Shown: piece after piece, positions 41,608 to 53,600 of the stretch
How the letters are laid out: each line of letters opens with the position of its first letter
How positions within the stretch are numbered: the stretch's first letter is position 1
Translations under genes and position numbers: made by a program
Assembly: GCA_948144175.1 (NCBI GenBank)
Contig: CANXME010002135.1
Location: forward strand, 62,001 to 126,000
DNA from: Closterium sp. NIES-65
Taxonomy: Eukaryota > Streptophyta > Zygnematophyceae > Desmidiales > Closteriaceae
DNA length: 64,000 nucleotides
Direction: 5' to 3'
The notes under the pieces: generated by a model
Told to the model about the DNA's origin: nothing
Database searches by the model: none
The model's input: only the letters and a program-made list of their open reading frames with translations

Positions 41608-44600
41608 TCATTTGTACCACCCTTGAAGGACAAGGCGGGCAGAGAAGCAAAGGAGAGCAGAGAGTACCTGCATGGGACGAGGGGGGGGGGGAAGCAAAGG
41701 CAGGGGAGGGGGAGAGAGACGAGTGGGAAGAAGAAGAGGGGAAGGAAGGCGAAGGGGTTGCATAATGCAAAGGAGAGGAGAGAGGAGAGTACCTGCATCG
41801 GACAAGAGGGAGGGAAAGTAAAGAGAGGCTCCAACGACAGGAGAATGCGCGGCGAGAGAGGTGAGCGCCGGGTGGGAGAGGGAAAAGGGGAGCAAACACG
41901 AAGGGGGTGAGTAATGTGAAGCAGAGGAGAGCAAAGGGACCTGGAAGATACGAGAGGATGCAACGACAGGAGAATGAGCAGAGAGCAGGGACAAGAGGTG
42001 AGCATGAGGAGAGAAGGAAAGGTGGGTGCGCTGTGTAAGGTTGTAGTGGTATTCTCTACGGAAAATGCAGGGAATTTCTATGGTAAGTACGGGGAATCTG
42101 AATCAACCCCAAGGGATGAGGATGGGCATAACGCGTGATAGGCCAAGTAGGCCTTGAAGGGAGAATGGGTGAATAAGGGAACACTTGAATGAGGATAGGA
42201 AGGATGTGAAAAGGAGATGTGACTTGACTGAGTGATGTGAAGTGAGGGTGCGAGGAAAAACTGTGAGGAGGTAGTTTGACGAGGGAGTGTGAGGAGGAAG
42301 TGTGAGGGAAGAGTGTGAGAAGGGCGATTGAGAGCGCAGAGTTAGAAGGAATGTGAGAAGGGAGTGTGGGGAGGGAGAGCGAGGAGTTGGAATAAGAAAG
42401 GACTGAAAGGAAGTGTGAGTGGGTGACACAGGACGGAGAGTCGAGAAGGAATGAGTATGAGACCATCTAGCAGAAACAATCCAGAGCAATAGATGATTCT
42501 GAGGCGTGACCATCCAAGTGCGAGCCATGCCAATCCAGCAAAGAAACAGCGCGAGAAAGAGCAGGCGAATGTGGAGCGTGTCCTCTGTGCATGGACCAAT
42601 GTGAATGAGCAACACACACCCAATGTGAATGAGCGACACACACCCAGCACAGACACAGTGCAGTTACCACAGCCACTGTCAAGAAGATACACCCTCAGGT
42701 CATTTGATGCTACCTGTGACAGCAACATTAGCTAGAGCTGCCAATGGGGCTCCTGACAAAGCACGCGGCACCTGAAAGGGCAGGGAGTACCTGGAAGGGC
42801 AGGGAGTACCTGGAAGGGCAGGGAGTACCTGGAAGGGCAGGGAGTACCTGGAAGGGCAGGGAGTACCTGGAACGGCAGGGAGTACCTGGAACGGCAGGGA
42901 GTACCTGAAAGGGCAGGGAGTACCTGGAAGGGCAGGGAGTACCTGGAAGGGCAGGGAGTACCTGGAAGGGCAGGGAGTACCTGGAAGGGCAGGGAGTACC
43001 TGGAAGGGCAGGGAGTACCTGGAAGGGCAGGGAGTACCTGGAACGGCAGGGAGTACCTGGAACGGCAGGGAGTACCTGAAAGGGCAGGGAGTACCTGGAA
43101 GGGCAGGGAGTACCTGGAAGGGCAGGGAGTACCTGAAAGGGCAGGGAGTACCTGGAAGAGCAGGGAGTACCTGGAAGGGCAGGGAGTACCTGGCGTTGCA
43201 GCAGGCGGATGCAGAAGTGTTCCTCTGTGCACGGGCCGAAGAGCCTGAGCAGCGTGGCCGAAGATCCACCCTCACCCAACCATCACCCACTCTCAAAATG
43301 AACAACCCTCAAGGCGTCCTGAGGCTACCTGGAAGAGCAGCAGGCGGATGCAGAGGTGTTCCTCTGTGCAGGGGCCGAAGAGGCGCAGGAAGAGGTTGAC
43401 GAGGTTGAGGTCGCTGCTGCCCGTCAGGCGGTGCGTGGCCGGGTCAAACCTGGTGTGGTGTCAGGGCGGAATGAGGAGGAGAAAGATTGGAGGGGGAGGG
43501 GAGGGAGAGGAGATGTGTGATATAGAGGGGTGGGTGAGGGGAAGAGGTTGACCAGGTTGAGGCGCCTCAACAGACGTCACCTGTCAGGACAGATCGACCT
43601 GACCCGACTTTACGAGTCAGACACGCATATCGAATCCCAAGGTGGCCCATCTGTGCAGAAGAACAGTCGAAATGCTCCGATTTACGAAATCGGCCACCGA
43701 AATCGCCGAGGGACATGGACTGGCGATTGTACTGTGCCCATTCACGTGGATCGGCCACCAAAACTGCCGATCTGATTTGTTGAAATCCGCGGATCCACCA
43801 ATCGGCGGTTGCACAGATTGGTTGTCGGAATGCGCCAGTCTGCATGGATTGGCTGTCAAGATCGACAATTCACACAAAAGCCGGTCGAAATGCACCAATC
43901 AGCACGAATTGATGGTTGAAATGCGCCTATCTGCTGCGCGGATCAGCAGTCAATATCGACAATTTTCCCATGCTCTGTACAATTGTCCCATGCTCTGTAC
44001 CATTTTCCCATGCTCTGTACCATTATCCCATGCTCTGTACCATTTTCCCATGCTCTGTACCATTTCTCCTCCAACAGGTGTTGTGTTGGTGTGGGCGGGG
44101 CTGAAAATGCCCGTATGGGAGCACGTTTGACCTTGCACCCTACCTCAAAATGAATTAAGGCCTACCTCAAAATGAATCAAGGCCTACCTCAAAATGAGTC
44201 AAGGCCTACCTCAAAATGAATCAAGGCCTACCTCAAAATGAATCAAGGCCTACCTCAAAATGAATCAAGGCCTACCTCAAAATGAATCAAGGCCTACCTC
44301 AAAATGAATCAAGGCCTACCTCGAAATGAATCAAGGCCTACCTCAAAATGAATCAAGGCCTACCTCAAAATGAATCAAGGCCTACCTCAAAATGAATCAA
44401 GGCCTACCTCAAAATGAATCAAGGCCTACCGCAAAATGAATCAAGGCCTAACGAGGGACGTCAAGAGGGTCTGGCGCTGCCCCATCTGCTACCAGCAGCA
44501 CCTGATGTGGTCGGGTCGGGACTCCAGGAATTCTGTGAAGTTTTTGGCCAGATGTGACCTTGCATCAATCGGTCGGAGGTAGGATAGGATGCAAGGTCAA

Positions 44601-47600
44601 ACGTGCTCTTATGCGGGCACTTCCTGCAAGGTCAAACGTGCTCTTATGCGGGCACTTCCTGCAAGGTCAAACGTGCTCTTATGCGGGCACTTCCTGCAAG
44701 GTCAAACGTGCTCTTATGCGGGCACTTCCTGCAAGGTCAAACGTGCTCTTATGCGGGCACTTCCTGCCCCGCACCGGCATCTATCGGGGGAGGTAGGATG
44801 GGAAAATTTGACCCGCTTCTTCATCTTAAGTAGAGGTAGGGTACCATGTTCAACGTTTTTATGAGAGTACTTCTTGCTTACAGCACTGGCAGAGTCAATG
44901 CGATGTTAAAAGAGCAGCACTGGCACTCTCATCCCATAAGCGCACTTTCCGCCGTACACCAGTATGTGGCGGACAATGGGAAAACCAACGGAGCTAACCA
45001 GACATGAATCAAAGGAGCATGCGAAGAGGGAGAGACAATACGGGAGGAGGGGGCACGGTATCGAGGCGCTTCATTTCACGCAAAACGGAGCGCAAAGGCA
45101 TGGTACTCACTTGGGCAGGCGATGTCTTGGGCACGGCACGAACTTGAAGAGCTGAGACGGGACGACAAGGGGCAGGAGGAAAGGGTCGAGGGGGAATGGG
45201 AGGGGTGAGGGGGATTGTGAGGGATGGGGTGCATGGGGGAAGGGAAAGGATGAGCGAAAAGTTTGCTTAGAAGAACATGAGCAGGCGATGACATGTTGAC
45301 ATTCAGAGGAAAACAAAGTTGTTCTGAAATTTCTGAGAAGTGACAACATACCTGGGGAATGGAGTAGATGAAATTGATGACCTGAGGGAGGAAGAGCAAC
45401 AGAAGAGTCTCACTGGTGGAAAAGAAGAGAGGAAAGGGGAAAGCAAGGGTTGAGTGTGTGAGACAGCAGAGGGGGACAGGGTCGTAGCAGCAGACAATGC
45501 AATGCAGCAAGAAGAAGAGGAGGTCAATATGGATTGATAATAGACTGATGGACTGAATGGAAATGAGAAAATCGATGGATCGATTAAGACGGGTTGAAAA
45601 CATTGATAAGGACAAGCTACTGAACTGATAAGCGGTTACCTGAAGTGGCCTAGAATGCCGACCACAGCGAGTGTCATTCCAGCAAAGTAGGTGAAGGTGT
45701 CGCCCACAAAGACCTGCGAGGGGTACCTGGGAGAGAGGGGAGAGGGCAGAAGACATGAGGAGGGGTAGAGGTATGCTTCAATCAAGCTGCTATTTTAGAG
45801 GTCTCAAAAGTCGAGGTGAGGACCACGTGAAATAAGTGTGTTTTTGAGACGCCTCAGAAACACACTTATTTCAAGAGGTATGCTTCAAGCTGATACTTGA
45901 GAGGTCTCAAAAGTCGAGGTGGGAGGAGAAGAGGTGTGTTTCAAGCTAATATCTGAGCCTGCTTTTGAGTCGACTCAAAAGCAGATTCAAGCTAATAGCT
46001 GAGCTGAAACGTCTCAGAAGTAAAGGTGGATGGAGATTACCTTTTGTAGCAGCTGCTTTTTGAGAATTCTCAAAAGCACCTGCACCAGAAAGCACCAGCA
46101 CCAGAAAGTTCCAGAGAAACACCTGCAGCGAAAAGTGGACGAAATAAGAGTTCGGCTTTCAGCCGATTGGACGCACAGCGTAACACCCGTTGAAAACTCA
46201 CCAGTTGAAGACGAGGAGAGCGAGAGTGCATGCAAGCAGAGGGAGGATGAGGTAGATGGAGAAGAGGTGCGCCTGTTGCATGTCCGGCTGCAGTGGCAGC
46301 TTCAAGCCCGGCAGCTCGCCTATCTGCCATATGTTGAACAGCAGCACCTGCGAGCGAGGGAGGAGGAGGGGGGAGAAGGGGGAGGGTAGAAGGGGCGACA
46401 GTGAATGAGGGGAGAGGAAGACGAGAGAGAGGGAGAGAGTGGCTGGCAGCTTAATTTTTGAGAGTTCTCAGAACAAAGAGAGAGTGGCAGCTTGTTTTTT
46501 GAGAATTCTCAAAACAAAGAGAGAGTGGCAGCTTGATTTTTTAGAATTCTCAAAACAAAGAGAGAGTGGCAGCTTGATTTTTTAGTTTTCTCAAAACAAA
46601 GAGAGAGTGGCAGCTTGATTTTTTAGTTTTCTCAAAACAAAGAGAGAGTGGCAGCTTGATGCCTGGCAGCGTATTTGAACTTGCCAGATGCTGGACTGAA
46701 CAGCAGTCCCTGAATGGGTACGGGAGGGGGCGGGAAGAAAGAGAGCAAGAAATGGGGGGGACTGGGGAGGGGGAAGGTAGGGAGCAAGAGACAGAGAGAG
46801 GATGCGTGGTGGGAGGATAAGAGGGAGGAGTATGAGAGACGGGTAAGGGGGGGTCGCAAGGAGGAGGCAGGTTGAGAAGGGCAACAGGGTAGAGAGGGGT
46901 AGAGAGGGGTAGAGAGGGGTGGCGTGGGTTGGAGGTAACCATTATCTATTCCTGAGCTGTCTGTGCTGCTCTCGAATCTAATGCATGTTGCGGTAAAGCT
47001 GTACTCTTTACAAGATAATGATGGGGTTCGCCGTCGTCTTATAGAGCACCCCAAGTACGCCTTATAGAGCACCCCATGTACGCCTTATAGAGCACCCCAT
47101 GAACGCCTTGTAGAGCACCCCATGAACGCCTTGTAGAGCACCCCATGAACGCCTTGTAGAGCACCCCATGTACGCCTTATAGAGCACCCCATGAACGCCT
47201 TGTAGAGCACCCCATGAACGCCTTGTAGAGCACCCCATGAACGCCTTGTAGAGCACCCCATGAACGCCTTGTAGAGCACCCCATGAACGCCTTGTAGAGC
47301 ACCCCATGAACGCCTTGTAGAGCACCCCATGAACGCCTTGTAGAGCACCCCATGAACGCCTTGTAGAGCACCCCATGAACGCCTTGTAGAGCACCCCATG
47401 AACGCCTTGTAGAGCACCCCATGAACGCCTTGTAGAGCACCCCATGAACGCCTTGTAGAGCACCCCATGAACGCCTTGTAGAGCACCCCATGTACGCTTC
47501 TTAGTGGGAATATAAGCTTATTGCGTATATAAGCTTATCTTATATACGCACTCGTATATACGCTAAACACTTTCGGGCCGAGTTTGGGAATACGCTTTTC

Positions 47601-50600
47601 CGGGCAGAAAAAAAACTTCCCGGGCAGGGTCAAAAAAACCCTGGGAAGGGGGGGGGGGGGGGGGGGGGGGTATGGGGCAGGGGTTTGGGGTCTGAAATTT
47701 CAGAGTACATTTTTTTCCCACTAAGTCACATACACCAAGGCCTGCACATAACTTTCCCCTACTCTCTAACTCTCTTACCACTACCATCACTACAATGGTA
47801 CACTACACCATCACGACCATCACTTATATCCTGGACTCTCTAGGTACTACTCCTTAGGCCTGGCCGCCCACTGCAATGCAAGCCACATATGCCCCCTCTA
47901 CTTAGCGTACTCGTCTTCGAGGATGTCGTCGTCGCTTTCCTCCTCATCCTCTCCCTTCGCCTCGTCTTCCAGCCCATTGTATCCCGCCGGGATTGGAGGC
48001 TCCGCTCCTATCCCGGCCACCACATGTGGCAGGACATCGGCGCGCGTGTGCCAGTTGCGCACAACATTCCAGTTGTGCGTAACATAGACCAAGTCCCTGC
48101 ACTTGGCGGATCCGAGCCTGTTCCGACGTGCGGTGTGGACGACATCCCAAGATGACCATCCACGCTCACAAGGTGAGGCGGACACGGGCTGAGACAGCAC
48201 CCGTACCGCTAGCCCCGCCACACGTGGAGCATCGGTCCCATTCCACTGCCACCACTTCACCATGCTATACTTCCCCTCTTTCACCAGCTTCCTTTGTGCC
48301 ACGGCTTCCGGCATCCCAAAAGAACCCTTCATGTCAAGAAACGCCCTCAGCCCGTCCCCCAGCTCAAGCAAGATGCTGCAAGCGTCATCCCCCCCATCCC
48401 CGCGGCTCGCAAGGAACTCGGCGTACTGGCTGATGAACACCTTGAAGACCTTCGTGCACTCGAGATCAGTGCCGAAGATATCTTCCTCCTGATTGGCGGG
48501 GTTGAGGATGCGGCCAGCGACATGCATGGCGCATGCGAGGCTGCCGTCCCAGCGGTCTCTGAGGATCTTGCGGATCTGGTCCTTATCCGCGTTGCTCAGC
48601 TGCTCCTCGTCCGCATCGAGTAAGTCCCCCACGTCCTCAGTCAACTGAAGCATAACATCGTATATCCTCCCCATCATCCCCACGGCATGCCCGTCCGTCT
48701 GCCTCATCGCCTTATAGGGCAGCTTCAGGAGGGCAGTGAAGAAGTCGGCCGTCTTCCACCAGGCGGCATCATGGATCAGCGCAGCAAACGCGTCGCATGA
48801 TTTCTTCCGGTCCCCTACCGCCCACTCCTTCCACCCCTCGCTCGTCACCATGTTGGTGAGGCTGCCGCGCATCGCACACAGCCGGGAGATGGAGATGTAG
48901 TTCGTCCCGAACCTCGTTCCAGCCGGCTTCAGCGCTTCCAGAACCTTCCCCTCCACCAATTCCGGCGTGCGCAGGTACCCGCGGGTCCAATGGTGGTTGC
49001 GGACGAAGCTGCTAATCTCCCCTCCCTTGTCGACCACCGGCTTAGCCCACCCCATCTTCCCCACGTCTTCCAGGAGAAGATCCATCACATGGGTGGCGCA
49101 CGGCACGTCTTGAATGTGCGGCCACTCCTGAATCAGTCGCTTCACCGCCACCGCGTAGTTCGATCCCCCATCCATGCAGAACGCCACAACGTTCTCTGGC
49201 CCCACTTCCTCCACCACGGGCCTGAGAATCCCCGCCACGTAACCACCCGTTTTCTTCTCCATGTTGCAGTCAACACAGTCGTAGAAGACGGCGCCCGAAT
49301 CATTGACGAGAAGAATGTTGGCCTGCGGCCTGCCCCTGCGGTCCGTCATCATGTCGGACGACACCGTCACGCCCGTCCGCTTCCAGCTCGTTTTGACGCC
49401 CACCAAACCCGCCTCGATGCCGTTGCGACACGCTACAAGGCCAGCACCGCCGACGTATTTCCGCTTGGGGGGAACGTAGTCTTTCCCGGCGCGGGAGACG
49501 TTGTTCAATGCGTTGACCATCAGAGGATGGTCAATGTGGCGCTCGGGGATGTGGAGGGCGGCCCAAGCAAGCGCAAGTGACTCGTCCGCTTCTCGCTTTC
49601 GTGCAGCCGTATCCCCCTCGAGGTAATCGGTGATTCGCGCGCGCTTCCCACCGTCAGCCGTCACTGCGGCAACCGCGGCAGCAGCGGCCCGCCTCCTTTC
49701 GTCGGCCGCAGCAGTCTTTGCCTCGTAATGCGCTTTCATGGCCCGACGCACATCTTGCGGCGCATCCTTGCACAGCACCACTTCACGGCGTTTCATGCCC
49801 TTCCACGACGCGAAGTGTTGCGCGCATCGGATGGCAGCACCGGTGTAGAGGTTGCTGCAGAACTTGCACTCGTACTGCTGGGCTTTACCCTCGACCCGCT
49901 TGACGATGCGGAAATGCTTGAAGACGACATGGTCGACGTCGGGGAGATACTCCCGTGCCTCGGTTAGAAGAGTCTGCGAGCTGCCAACGGTGTTAACTGA
50001 CGGTGTCGTGGGAGAAGTGGTAGTAGTCGACATAGGCACCAGGCGCTAGGGAATGCCCAGTGCTCTGCTGGTAGCGGGAGAAGACCTAATGAGTTGGATG
50101 TTGGGGGTGTGCGTGTTTAATAGCGAGTAGATTGGGGGAGTTGGAAGATGGGCAACTGAAGTTGGAATCGCAATTGGTTGTGAAGGTTTTGAATGCGGTA
50201 CTGACTGTGACCACCAAAATGTGAGGGAACGTGCAAGCGCGACTCGACGTACGTTACTTTCCATTCGCGGCTCAAACTTTCAACCCACGTCCACGCTAGC
50301 ACACAGCGCGGACGTGACATTTGACCCCGCCAATGTGTTCGTCGTGCAATTCCGAAGCGAACCGTATAGGTTGAATTTTTTTGGCCGGGCTGCCCCTAAA
50401 AAAATTTGGCTAGCGTATAGCGTATTCGCTAGCGTTTTGCGTATTGCGTATAAACGCTAGCGTGTATACGCTAAACGCAAACAGTTCTGAGCGTATTTTC
50501 CCACTAAGGTACGCTTCACAGAGCACCCCGAGACCCCACACTTAATGCCTTGGAGCTATAAGTTCACATTCTCTTTCTCCCAATCTTACCGCAGCAGCGA

Positions 50601-53600
50601 TCACTGCAGCCTGGCCGGCCTCCCAACCATTCACTCCCGCCAGGATATTAATGGAGGGAGCAGAACACCCGAGCATGGCCATGTAGACCTTGTACAGCAC
50701 GCCTAGGTCCCACACTACCACCTCCCTCCATTCCACACCCCCCCTCCCCCCATTCCATATCCCCCCTTCCCCAGGTGCATGCAGCCCTAGTGAAGCACGT
50801 TCACGCCACACCACACTCACCGCAGCAGCGATCACAGCAGTCTGCCCAGCTTCCAACCCGTTCACTCCCGCGAGAATGTTGATGGAATTAGAGCAGAAGA
50901 CGACGAGCATGCCCATGTAGACCTTGTACAGCACGCCCAGGTCCCACACGGCCACCTCCTCGCCTGCCAGCCCTGCCAGCAGCGGCCGCAGCGGCTTGGG
51001 GATGACGATGGTGGTGTGGCCTGAATAGGCCATCAGGAGAGGCAGGGCCGCTATAGACGGCAGAATGAGCTTGCTGCAGGGGAGAAGGGGGCAGGGAGGG
51101 AGGGAGAAGCACGGGGCAAGGGATTGGAAGGGACCGACGAACACTTGGCTTGGGGATGACGATGGTGGTGTGGCCTGAATAGGCCATGAGGAGAGGGAGG
51201 GCCGCGATGGAACGGAGAATGAGTTTCCTGCAGAGGAGAGGGAAAGGAGGTGGGGGCGGGACAGAAGGCGAGAAGGGGCGGGAACGGGGCGGGAAGGGGC
51301 GGGAAGGGATGGGAAGGGGTGGGAAGGGGCGGGAAGGGGCGGGAAGGGGCAGGAAGGGGCGGGAAGGGGCGGGACGGGGCAGGAAGGGGCGTGAAGGGGC
51401 AGGAAGGGACGGCAAGGGGCAGGAAGGGGCGGGAAGGGGCAGGAAGGGGCGGGAAGGGCGGGAAAGGGGTGGGAAGGGGTGGGATGGGGCGGGAAACAGC
51501 ATGATGATGGTGGTGTGGGTGGAGTAGGCCATGAGGAGAGGCAGCGCGGCGATTGCGGGGAGAATGAGCTTGCTGCGGGGAGAATGAGCTTGCTGCGGGG
51601 GAGAAGGGGGGGAAGGAGAGAGACAAGCATGGGGCTTCGGAGGGAGCAACCACGTGGCTTGGGGGTGGCAATGGTGGTGCGGCGAGGGCAGGCAAAGAGG
51701 ATCGGAGAGGCAGTGCGGTAAAGGACGAGGTAGCCACGTGAAAGAAGAGTGTTTGTGAGACGTCTCAAAAACACTCTTCTTTCACGGAGACGCAGAGCGG
51801 TAAAGGACGAGGTACAGAATGACATGAAGCATGCGGGATGGCGGGAGACCTTGTGAGGCGTCTCAAATGGCTAAGGACGTTAGGAGACGTGGGAGGGGAG
51901 GGGAAAAGGGCCCCGAAAGTAACCTCATCTCATCTCCCCCCTGCCCATCTGCCCCTGCCCATCCTCCCCTGCCCATCCTCCCCTGCCCATCCTCCCCTGC
52001 CCATCTTCCCGAGCCCAAACGTGCCCTTGATATGATCCATTCCCCCCAGCAGCACCCCCCAGCAGCACCCCCCAGCAGCACTGACACACGCCAGGGGATG
52101 TCGAGCACATCGTCGATGAAGCCCAGGAAGGCCATGTAGCAGATGCACGCGAGCGCTGCATTGTACTCCAGCAGCCACTGCCCCATGGGGGGGGACGGCA
52201 GGTGGGGGAGCGAAGGGGGAGAAAGGTAGGAGGGGGCGAGCAGGGGGTGAGTGGGTAAAAGTGAGTAGAGCACGGCATGTAGCAGATGCACGCCATGTAG
52301 CAGATGCACGCCATGTAGCAGATGCACGCCAGCACTGCGTTGTACTCAAGCAGCCACTGGAGGGGGGAAGAGAGGGGAGAGGGAGCGGTGGGATAGCAAG
52401 GGGGACTGAACGAAGCCCAGGAAGGCCGTGAAGCAGATGCTCGCCAACGCTGCATTGTTCTGAAGCAGATGCGCAGAGAGCAGGCACGGCACTGGGAGAG
52501 GGGGCGTAGAAGTGGATGTGCACGGGCGAGTGGGTACAAGTGGATGTGCACGGGCGAGTGGGTAGAAGTGGATGTGCACGGGCGAGTGGGTAGAAGCAGG
52601 CAAGGCCACGAAGCAGATGCACGCCCGTCCCAATCCGGCCAGGATAAACAGCCAAAGGCGCGTTTGGCTCCAGCAGCTGTTGGGTCCGCTGATGCACGCG
52701 GGCAGAGGGGGGATGGCAGGGAGAAGTGGGGCGAGGGGCGCACGGGAGCGAGGAGAGGGAGCTGAGAAGGACATGATAAGGGGAGAATGCAGCGTGAGAG
52801 TGGGATCAGCTGAGCAAGGACCTGCATATCTTACCTGAGCTCGCTATAGCTGAAGAAACACCTGAAACATCACCTGGGAGGCACTCACAGGCGAGTCAGG
52901 CGTGAAGTAGAAGTGCTGGAAAAGGATGGTTACCACCAGGTACACGAGCGCCACCACCAGTCCCTGCGTCTCGGGTCTGGATAGGGGGTAGTGTGGAAGC
53001 ACATGGCATGGGGTTGCATGGAGCCATGGGGGTCATGGGGTGCATGGGGGTACATGCACAGCACAGGTGACAAGGGGGAGTCACCATTCACGTCTCGGGT
53101 CTGGGGAGTGTGGGGCAAGCATGGAATGGGGGGCATGGGGGTGCACGGTTGACAAAGGAAATGCACAGTACCACCTATCCACCCATGAGCACACAGTGGG
53201 TACCACCAAACCCGATCCTGAGTCCCGCAGTACGGGGGAGGGAGGGAAAGGGTGAGTGGAAGTGGGAATGATGCACACTACCACTACCCAATCGACCCTG
53301 GGTACACTTGGAACATTACTCTCCCCTTCACTAATATCACACTTGGAATTGCCGGCTGAGAGCATCGCTCGTAAGCAGCACATCTGAGCAGTGTTGATAT
53401 ATCAGTGCTTCTCACCGTTCGTTGTACTCACATCTTGATTTCTCCAGCTGGGGAACCTCGCTTGTTTATATCGAATCCGAACATGTTTCTCCGCAACATA
53501 TAAGGCACCGCCAACGGAATGAGTTTCGTCGTTATAAAGAATCCCGCGACGCTCATAACGGCGTTGATTGTAATGGATCGTCGCTCTAACGGATCCAGGT

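Follow-up and report, generated by a model that had tools for sequence, protein, structure and literature searches.

The 19-bp tandem array in intron 9 of ALG7 reads much like the joined ends of the two exons that flank this intron. The question raised by this locus is whether the array marks the birth of the intron by tandem duplication of coding DNA around an exonic AG|GT, as the initial annotation had proposed, or whether it arose secondarily within an older intron. The window, i.e., the whole stretch of 64,000 nucleotides that was analysed, carries the gene on its minus strand from 53499 to 41608. According to our own gene model it comprises ten exons, with a putative start of the first exon. 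The predicted protein matched PF00953 in Pfam (E 4.5e-30), and its best matches in the PDB were UDP-GlcNAc:dolichyl-phosphate GlcNAc-phosphotransferase chains (E 1.9e-82), the enzyme in these entries being presumably human DPAGT1. Judged by its predicted protein, the gene is ALG7/GPT (UDP-GlcNAc:dolichyl-P GlcNAc-1-P transferase). The interval 41608-43449, initially given for intron 9, contains the intron but takes in both neighboring exons (for the true limits see Table 1).

The genome searched was a eukaryotic assembly of 874 Mb in 2400 contigs. An LHC protein encoded in it had its best matches among chlorophyll a-b binding proteins of the plant type, which identifies the organism as green. 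Most gene matches in the Pfam and family searches were paired on two contigs, and a second copy of ALG7 was located on contig C2219. Outside the stretches of intron that resemble exons, referred to as exon copies in the following, the two ALG7 genes differ at 15 of 7455 aligned intron bases. Haploid Closterium strains are described as carrying many duplicated genes (PMC10407611). A third ALG7 locus, found on C841 with a 160-base fused-exon query, is a broken paralog whose reading contains stops; it is 84% identical to ALG7 over the 121 bases of exon 9 and 87% over the 60 bases of exon 10. More ALG7-like fragments, several of them with stops, occur outside the window at C1837:139690-141526 and 168419-168715, that is, on the window's own contig, and on C2219.

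The 19-bp array and the age of intron 9

Analysis by TRF gave a period of 19, 22.3 copies and 96% matches, which agrees with the roughly 22 units counted initially. In gene sense the unit reads CTGCCCTTCCAGGTACTCC, with close variants; 22 full units are present, and the gene copy on C2219 carries the same 22 full units in identical order. This is unlike two other arrays, which vary in size between the ALG7 gene copies (L009/L010), with 20 units in the window versus 73 for a 23-bp array and 5 versus 13 for a 35-bp array. As had been noted initially, the unit equals the fused exon 9/exon 10 junction at 17 of 19 bases, and the joined junction holds CTGCTCT twice at a spacing of 19 bp. Local alignment of the unit yielded a score of 22 for the fused junction, compared to 17 for intron end plus exon 10 and 13 for exon 9 plus intron start; none of the 28 other fused junctions scored above 11. 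With position-wise sampling from 29 intron starts, the chance of an intron-start heptamer matching exon 10 in at least 6 of 7 bases was 0.001; that of an intron-end 12-mer matching exon 9 was 0.0004. The array is more similar to exon-edge sequence and to the joined exon 9/10 junction than chance would allow. The reported in-frame reading LPFQVLPAL is present as well but, with 19 not divisible by 3, only one unit in three repeats it in frame.

In gene order, intron 9 leads from the donor GTAGCC through a partial exon 9 copy, the array, a weaker exon 9 copy and two exon 10 edge copies to the acceptor (Table 1). The array begins in register directly at the end of the partial exon 9 copy, and its second unit is identical to the end of exon 9, CTGCTCTTCCAG. 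Behind the third, weaker exon 9 copy no continuation into exon 10 was found beyond the level of shuffles (p 0.5). In another intron of the gene, the exon 3 edge copy with a 3' splice site continues as an array (52270-52331) with an 18-bp unit of exon 3 sequence. The gene also harbors a hAT-like transposon of 3009 bp (47500-50508, minus strand) bordering the 23-bp array that resembles exon 4. Its reading frame of 713 aa matches Dimer_Tnp_hAT and DUF659, it shows an 8-bp target duplication (AAGCGTAC), and the gene copy on C2219 represents the empty site.

Table 1. Exons, exon copies and arrays of ALG7 in the window
Feature	Position	Strand	Basis and remarks
ALG7 exon 9 (intact copy)	43329..43449	-	Gene model and protein match; ends CTGCTCTTCCAG
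ALG7 exon 10 with stop codon	41608..41667	-	Gene model; begins GTACTCTCTGCTCT
ALG7 intron 9, 1661 bp	41668..43328	-	Starts GTAGCCTC, ends CCCATGCAG
19-bp array, 22.3 units, exon 9 end plus GTACTCC	42770..43193	-	TRF; C2219 copy agrees
Partial exon 9 copy (exon positions 68-121 plus GTA), 89% identical	43187..43243	-	E 1.2e-17; directly before array
Probable older exon 9 copy (positions 74-111), weak	42560..42597	-	E 4.5e-4
Exon 10 edge copy plus 13 bases of 3' splice region	41770..41806	-	E 4.9e-7
Second exon 10 edge copy, weak, also with 13 bases of 3' splice region	41918..41954	-	E 8.8e-4
Exon 9 fragment upstream of exon 9	43540..43562	-	E 1.1e-5
Exon 3 edge copy with 3' splice site	52310..52359	-	blastn and array test
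Exon 3 copy	52412..52468	-	blastn
Exon 4 edge copy with 3' splice site	51147..51242	-	blastn
Exon 4 edge copy	51501..51584	-	20-bp array across its 3' splice site, 51554-51605
Exon 4 downstream copy, 5' splice site GTAAG	50585..50725	-	blastn and edge check
23-bp array resembling exon 4 (GVLYK)	47038..47497	-	20 units in window

Introns are known to be gained by tandem duplication of an exonic AG|GT (PMC3443670, PMC4974935). The ALG7 array appears similar in that its unit spans AG|GT, resembles joined coding sequence and would offer both splice dinucleotides. However, an intron born in this way should start like exon 10 and end like exon 9, and intron 9 does neither: its start is GTAGCCTC versus GTACTCTC, its end CCCATGCAG versus TCTTCCAG, so that its true ends differ from the unit. 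A repeat unit spanning the joined exonic AG|GT is present, as such an origin demands, but the array of a PC-esterase gene described below fits equally. The initial annotation had itself held that a relative with an intron at this position and without the array would speak against its proposal, and such a relative was found within this genome. The C841 paralog has an intron 9 of 1517 bp at the same splice position, in which the 19-bp array was detected neither by reading through the intron nor by genome pattern searches, and which holds five exon 9 edge copies spaced 133-135 bp. Unless C841 acquired its intron independently, intron 9 therefore predates the array. In addition, the array sits behind an exon 9 copy inside the intron, the same intron carries the two exon 10 edge copies with their 13-base 3' splice region, and similar copies flank exons in other introns and genes. 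Thus, in spite of the match to the fused junction and the doubled CTGCTCT, it is highly improbable that the array is the remnant of a duplication that created intron 9, and intron birth by the array appears largely refuted.

Exon-edge copies in modelled genes and sampled loci

Four genes, ALG7, CCT-beta, CCT-epsilon and CCT-eta (the latter with a partial model), were modelled using our own spliced aligner, which had been checked on ALG7, and their 33 exons were compared to the 29 introns at a match threshold of at least 36 bits. All 56 matches were in sense and located in an intron touching the exon in question, while among these exons and introns no antisense, reversed or non-adjacent-intron match occurred. 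The upstream intron contained 36 matches, all closer to the 5' edge of the exon (11 of them units of one 124-bp array), and the downstream intron 20, all closer to the 3' edge. An upstream copy was present in 17 of the 29 exons following an intron and a downstream copy in 12 of the 29 preceding one. The nearest upstream copy was 117-179 bp off in 14 of 17 cases and 263-298 bp in three, the nearest downstream copy 139-240 bp in 12 of 12. The splice edge was reached by 43 of the 56 matches; AG was kept in 27 of 28 upstream edge matches (16 of 17 when the recent array is set aside) and GT in all 15 downstream ones, a count that is biased by the 13 matches ending short of the edge. Tandem duplication across an exon-intron boundary should yield direct, local, same-strand copies with one splice site and one part of an exon, and in sense and adjacency 56 of 56 matches agree with this. 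In the four genes the copies were all partial and accounted for 4304 of 20636 aligned intron bases (about 21%, with one recent array counted in), and the pieces between an exon and its nearest copy mostly measured 45-130 bp. By blastn, the ALG7 exons gave ten sense matches to the introns at E<1e-4 and none in either control; the list at E<0.01 includes trivial self-matches of 15-base flanks, which were disregarded.

Arrays in introns partly showed the same relation to the exons. Eight of 37 intronic arrays with a period of at least 12 matched an exon of their own gene above every shuffle and above all exons of other genes; two of these consist of about two units each and represent no more than paired exon copies. 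With fused junctions left out, the ALG7 19-mer scored 15 against its own exons compared to a shuffle maximum of 14 and was the weakest of the eight. The remaining 29 arrays failed this test; by raw score, 14 arrays fit their own exons better and 17 those of other genes. CCT-epsilon (L014) contains an 11.5-unit array with a period of 124 bp across a 3' splice site, in which most units equal the real exon edge including its intron part. This array is a fresh case of edge duplication.

A wider sample consisted of 17 loci from Pfam searches (chaperonin family, class I tRNA synthetases and PF00953), picked without regard to repeats. With 61 anchors, they produced 133 sense, 2 antisense and 0 reversed matches at E<1e-4. 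Sense matches were found in 16 of the 17 loci, although in one of these the sole match was a 29-base adjacent repeat, and one locus had no sense match at this threshold. Among the best 12 matches of each locus, a few had shorter offsets of 29 to 111 bp, and for some exons upstream and downstream copies appeared by eye to have abutting inner ends, an arrangement that insertion of an exon into itself would give. When exonic 50-mers were used, 34% of 498 had a sense match of at least 40/50 within 1 kb, with offsets peaking at 120-280 bp, and 0 had an antisense match. For non-exonic 50-mers of the sampled loci, exon copies and arrays included, the values were 25% of 2624 in sense versus 0.1% in antisense, and in the rest of the window 7% of 1013 50-mers had local sense repeats. 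Local direct repetition is therefore not confined to exons. Copies were present at 52 of the 75 exons or anchors examined, and all copy counts stem from one genome. Sense copies occurred in none of six intron-poor LHC loci, all close paralogs, two of which had one antisense match.

A different kind of repeat, palindromes of the form TTTTGAG-NCGN-CTCAAAA, occurs at 45844-45980 and at many other loci (24,964 in the genome versus 0 for the reversed pattern), and some of the intronic ones are embedded in longer hairpins. Palindromes of the general type TTTTGAG-N4-CTCAAAA were considered as a cause of the copies; they are common, but no link emerged.

Origin of the copies and of the array

We consider it most plausible, at a probability of about 0.6, that the array is a secondary minisatellite in an old intron, formed after recurrent duplications of exon edges that were sometimes derived from a diverged allele or paralog. 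Short duplications would repeatedly place one exon edge, splice site included, in the intron next to it, which is the pattern observed, and the edge copies would be tolerated because the outer copy is spliced out. Such a copy of exon 9 is present in ALG7 intron 9, and its 3' end, CTGCTCTTCCAG plus seven bases, may subsequently have been amplified by slippage to 22 units. The template of many copies may have been a functional yet diverged version of the exon, allele or paralog, because these copies differ mostly at silent sites though they now seem to be neutral. Adjacency, orientation, edge bias, short nearest offsets and an intron-like SNP rate are observed for the copies; as a mechanism we propose that a break or stalled fork in the exon might be repaired by copying a short piece across the exon edge from sister, homolog or paralog and then end-joined, and that whole-exon duplications would be purged. 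There was no sign of a function of the array or the copies.

The 11 copies in the CCT-epsilon array were left out of the tests of divergence and flanks, so that 45 of the 56 copies remained. Mismatches between exons and copies were distributed over the codon positions as 81:60:278, and 26 frame-breaking indels occurred in the 45 copies. Divergence amounted to 265 changes in 875 silent sites (0.303) and 147 in 2707 nonsilent ones (0.054), resulting in a pN/pS of 0.18. In 42 triplets consisting of an exon and two same-side copies, the changes by codon position were 23:20:98 on the branch of the inner copy, 48:35:111 on that of the outer copy and 15:9:75 on that of the exon. Across bins of divergence, positions 1-2 stayed at about 3-7% as position 3 rose from 5 to 32%. 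In contrast, SNPs between the gene copies of the four aligned gene pairs had a frequency of 0.209% in exon copies (9/4304) and 0.190% in other intron sequence (31/16332), as compared to 0.041% in exons (2/4863). Seven of the SNPs in copies fell on positions 1-2 and two on position 3, versus 141:278 for divergence (Fisher p 0.0097), a contrast of nine SNPs, of which five stem from one gene and two are adjacent. Small as these numbers are, they suggest that the copies drift neutrally at present and that most differences arose while both versions coded. Mostly silent differences together with neutral SNPs therefore suggest that the template was a diverged allele or paralog, or that the copies were once used as exons. 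Diverged ALG7 copies exist elsewhere in the genome; for CCT-epsilon, the one copy searched matched its own locus pair only, and no donor was found.

An alternative, on our assessment rather unlikely, is that all copies are plain neutral tandem duplications from the same chromosome that later decayed, without a diverged template. The fresh CCT-epsilon array with its 11.5 units of 124 bp is of this kind, copies with matching intron flanks exist, and the 14 copies in the bin of lowest divergence at position 3 display a near neutral 10:12:17 by codon position. In a comparison of four loci, some insertions between gene copies likewise proved to be exact tandem duplications of 10-62 bp and others did not; ALG7 rows near the transposon or arrays and rows from the array region of L017 were left out here, and L038 was used in this comparison only. 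However, under plain duplication the three codon positions should change to about the same extent, which is at odds with the 23:20:98 of the inner copies and the low pN/pS. Plain duplication also predicts shared intron flanks, and flanks were similar at p<0.05 in only 8 of the 33 copies that reach an edge and have a flank of sufficient length. The power of this flank test is low, since 7 of 10 equivalent flanks between ALG7 paralogs failed as well and 3 were similar, with two unclean exon 1 comparisons in this control, one being the 5' flank and one seemingly out of register. A fused appearance was seen in only 1 of 35 copies tested. With regard to a possible use of copies as split exons, GT occurred near their inner ends in 6 of 19 cases and AG in 9 of 15 as raw counts.

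With respect to the array itself, the source of the seven bases added to the exon 9 end has to be considered. The exact unit was found in the genome at two near-identical loci only, the window and its partner, and the genome pattern search did not reveal the same sequence in introns of many genes, as would be typical of a dispersed element. A 32-base array query with up to 3 mismatches identified arrays on at least four contigs and at least one single site, among them 19-bp arrays of CTGCCCTTCCAGGTGCGCC on C170 and C1711 and a single site on C2285. The C170 array (L040, C170:293500-298000) is preceded by ...GTCACGCCCTTCCAG and followed by GTGCGATCC, and peptides of the surrounding gene match PC-Esterase (PF13839). 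Read by eye on C170 alone and without a gene model, its unit apparently consists of an exon end plus the start of the gene's own intron and lies at the exon end/5' splice site. As the PC-esterase unit equals the ALG7 unit at 17 of 19 bases, the same as the ALG7 junction does, an origin from an exon/intron boundary rivals one from the junction. The other case named initially as speaking against the proposal, a better match of the 19-mer to an unrelated genomic satellite than to the junction, thus ended in a tie: the exact unit is limited to two loci, but its PC-esterase relative fits as well as the junction.

That the seven bases represent the start of the own intron of the exon 9 copy, as PC-esterase seems to have it, has a little less than an even chance in our view; the match to the fused junction counts against such a plain boundary array. 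Alternatively, the seven bases may be exon 10 sequence, joined via the CAGGTA common to the exon 9 donor and the exon 10 acceptor, which we regard as possible but doubtful. For these bases to derive from shared ancestry with, or import from, the PC-esterase array is improbable. The same holds for the whole ALG7 array having been imported from, or sharing ancestry with, the arrays on C170 and C1711, with its likeness to the junction arising by chance. The units would be in accordance with this, as they agree at 17 of 19 bases with equal period and the same register at CCTTCCAG|GT, and the tail of the exon 9 copy is weakly similar to the esterase tail (shuffle p 0.034). However, the end of the exon 9 copy passes in register into the array, unit 2 of which is that exon's end, and a comparison of C170 and ALG7 detected no similarity outside the arrays.

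The coding-type divergence and the kept splice sites might also be explained if the copies had once been working alternative exons, mutually exclusive because the introns between them were too short to splice, and were later truncated. Spacer pieces of mostly 45-130 bp and nearly complete exon 3 copies in the C841 ALG7 paralog are consistent with this idea. However, offsets are often below the length of the exon (153 bp for a 486-bp exon), so that many copies probably never were whole exons, and the SNPs show no present constraint; we consider such a past quite unlikely. Finally, although the copies resemble edges of another functional version and the nearest offsets are close to short-read length, an assembly artefact that wove exon edges of a second, diverged haplotype into the contigs is very unlikely, as both gene copies carry exon copies that differ with a frequency close to that of intron SNPs, the exon 9 copies in intron 9 come before those of exon 10, opposite to a simple concatenation of two haplotypes, and long exact arrays are present.

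Relation to known systems and significance

Ordinary intronic minisatellites are thought to spread by slippage or unequal exchange. The ALG7 array is similar to these in its head-to-tail arrangement of very similar 19-bp units, but differs in lying next to an exon copy and in having a unit similar to an exon edge. Introners are intron-associated repeats across a genome, and so are the exon-edge copies; unlike introners, however, each copy derives from its own exon, and the ALG7 unit is limited to two near-identical loci and one related array pair. As described in PMC4974935, a tandem duplication across an intron-exon boundary in potato RdRp made a new intron in one event. The copies described here resemble this case in that the duplication crosses the 3' splice site and the 5' part of the exon, whereby polypyrimidine tract and acceptor are inherited; in contrast to the single event in potato, there are many per gene, and the gene models leave the copies unused. 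In contrast to introns gained by AGGT duplication, intron 9 exists without the array in a paralog and its ends are not derived from the unit. In the literature as searched, by titles and with most subscription papers outside, no account of pervasive exon-edge copies was found. A single boundary duplication is already known (PMC4974935), and the occurrence of copies at most exons examined, in this one genome, would be the new aspect.

Even if an array mimics a spliced junction, it does not necessarily mark the birth of an intron. Intron lengthening and new splice sites are usually inferred from single cases; if the pattern described here is general, it would record intron growth at the level of the sequence, supply decoy splice sites and be apt to mislead gene prediction. 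As a tentative and wider proposal, which we regard as possible rather than probable, introns may grow by a genome-wide repair habit that copies exon edges from a diverged functional allele or paralog. If this is true, each intron would preserve earlier alleles of its own exons like fossils, and some of the scars would swell into minisatellites of splice sites.
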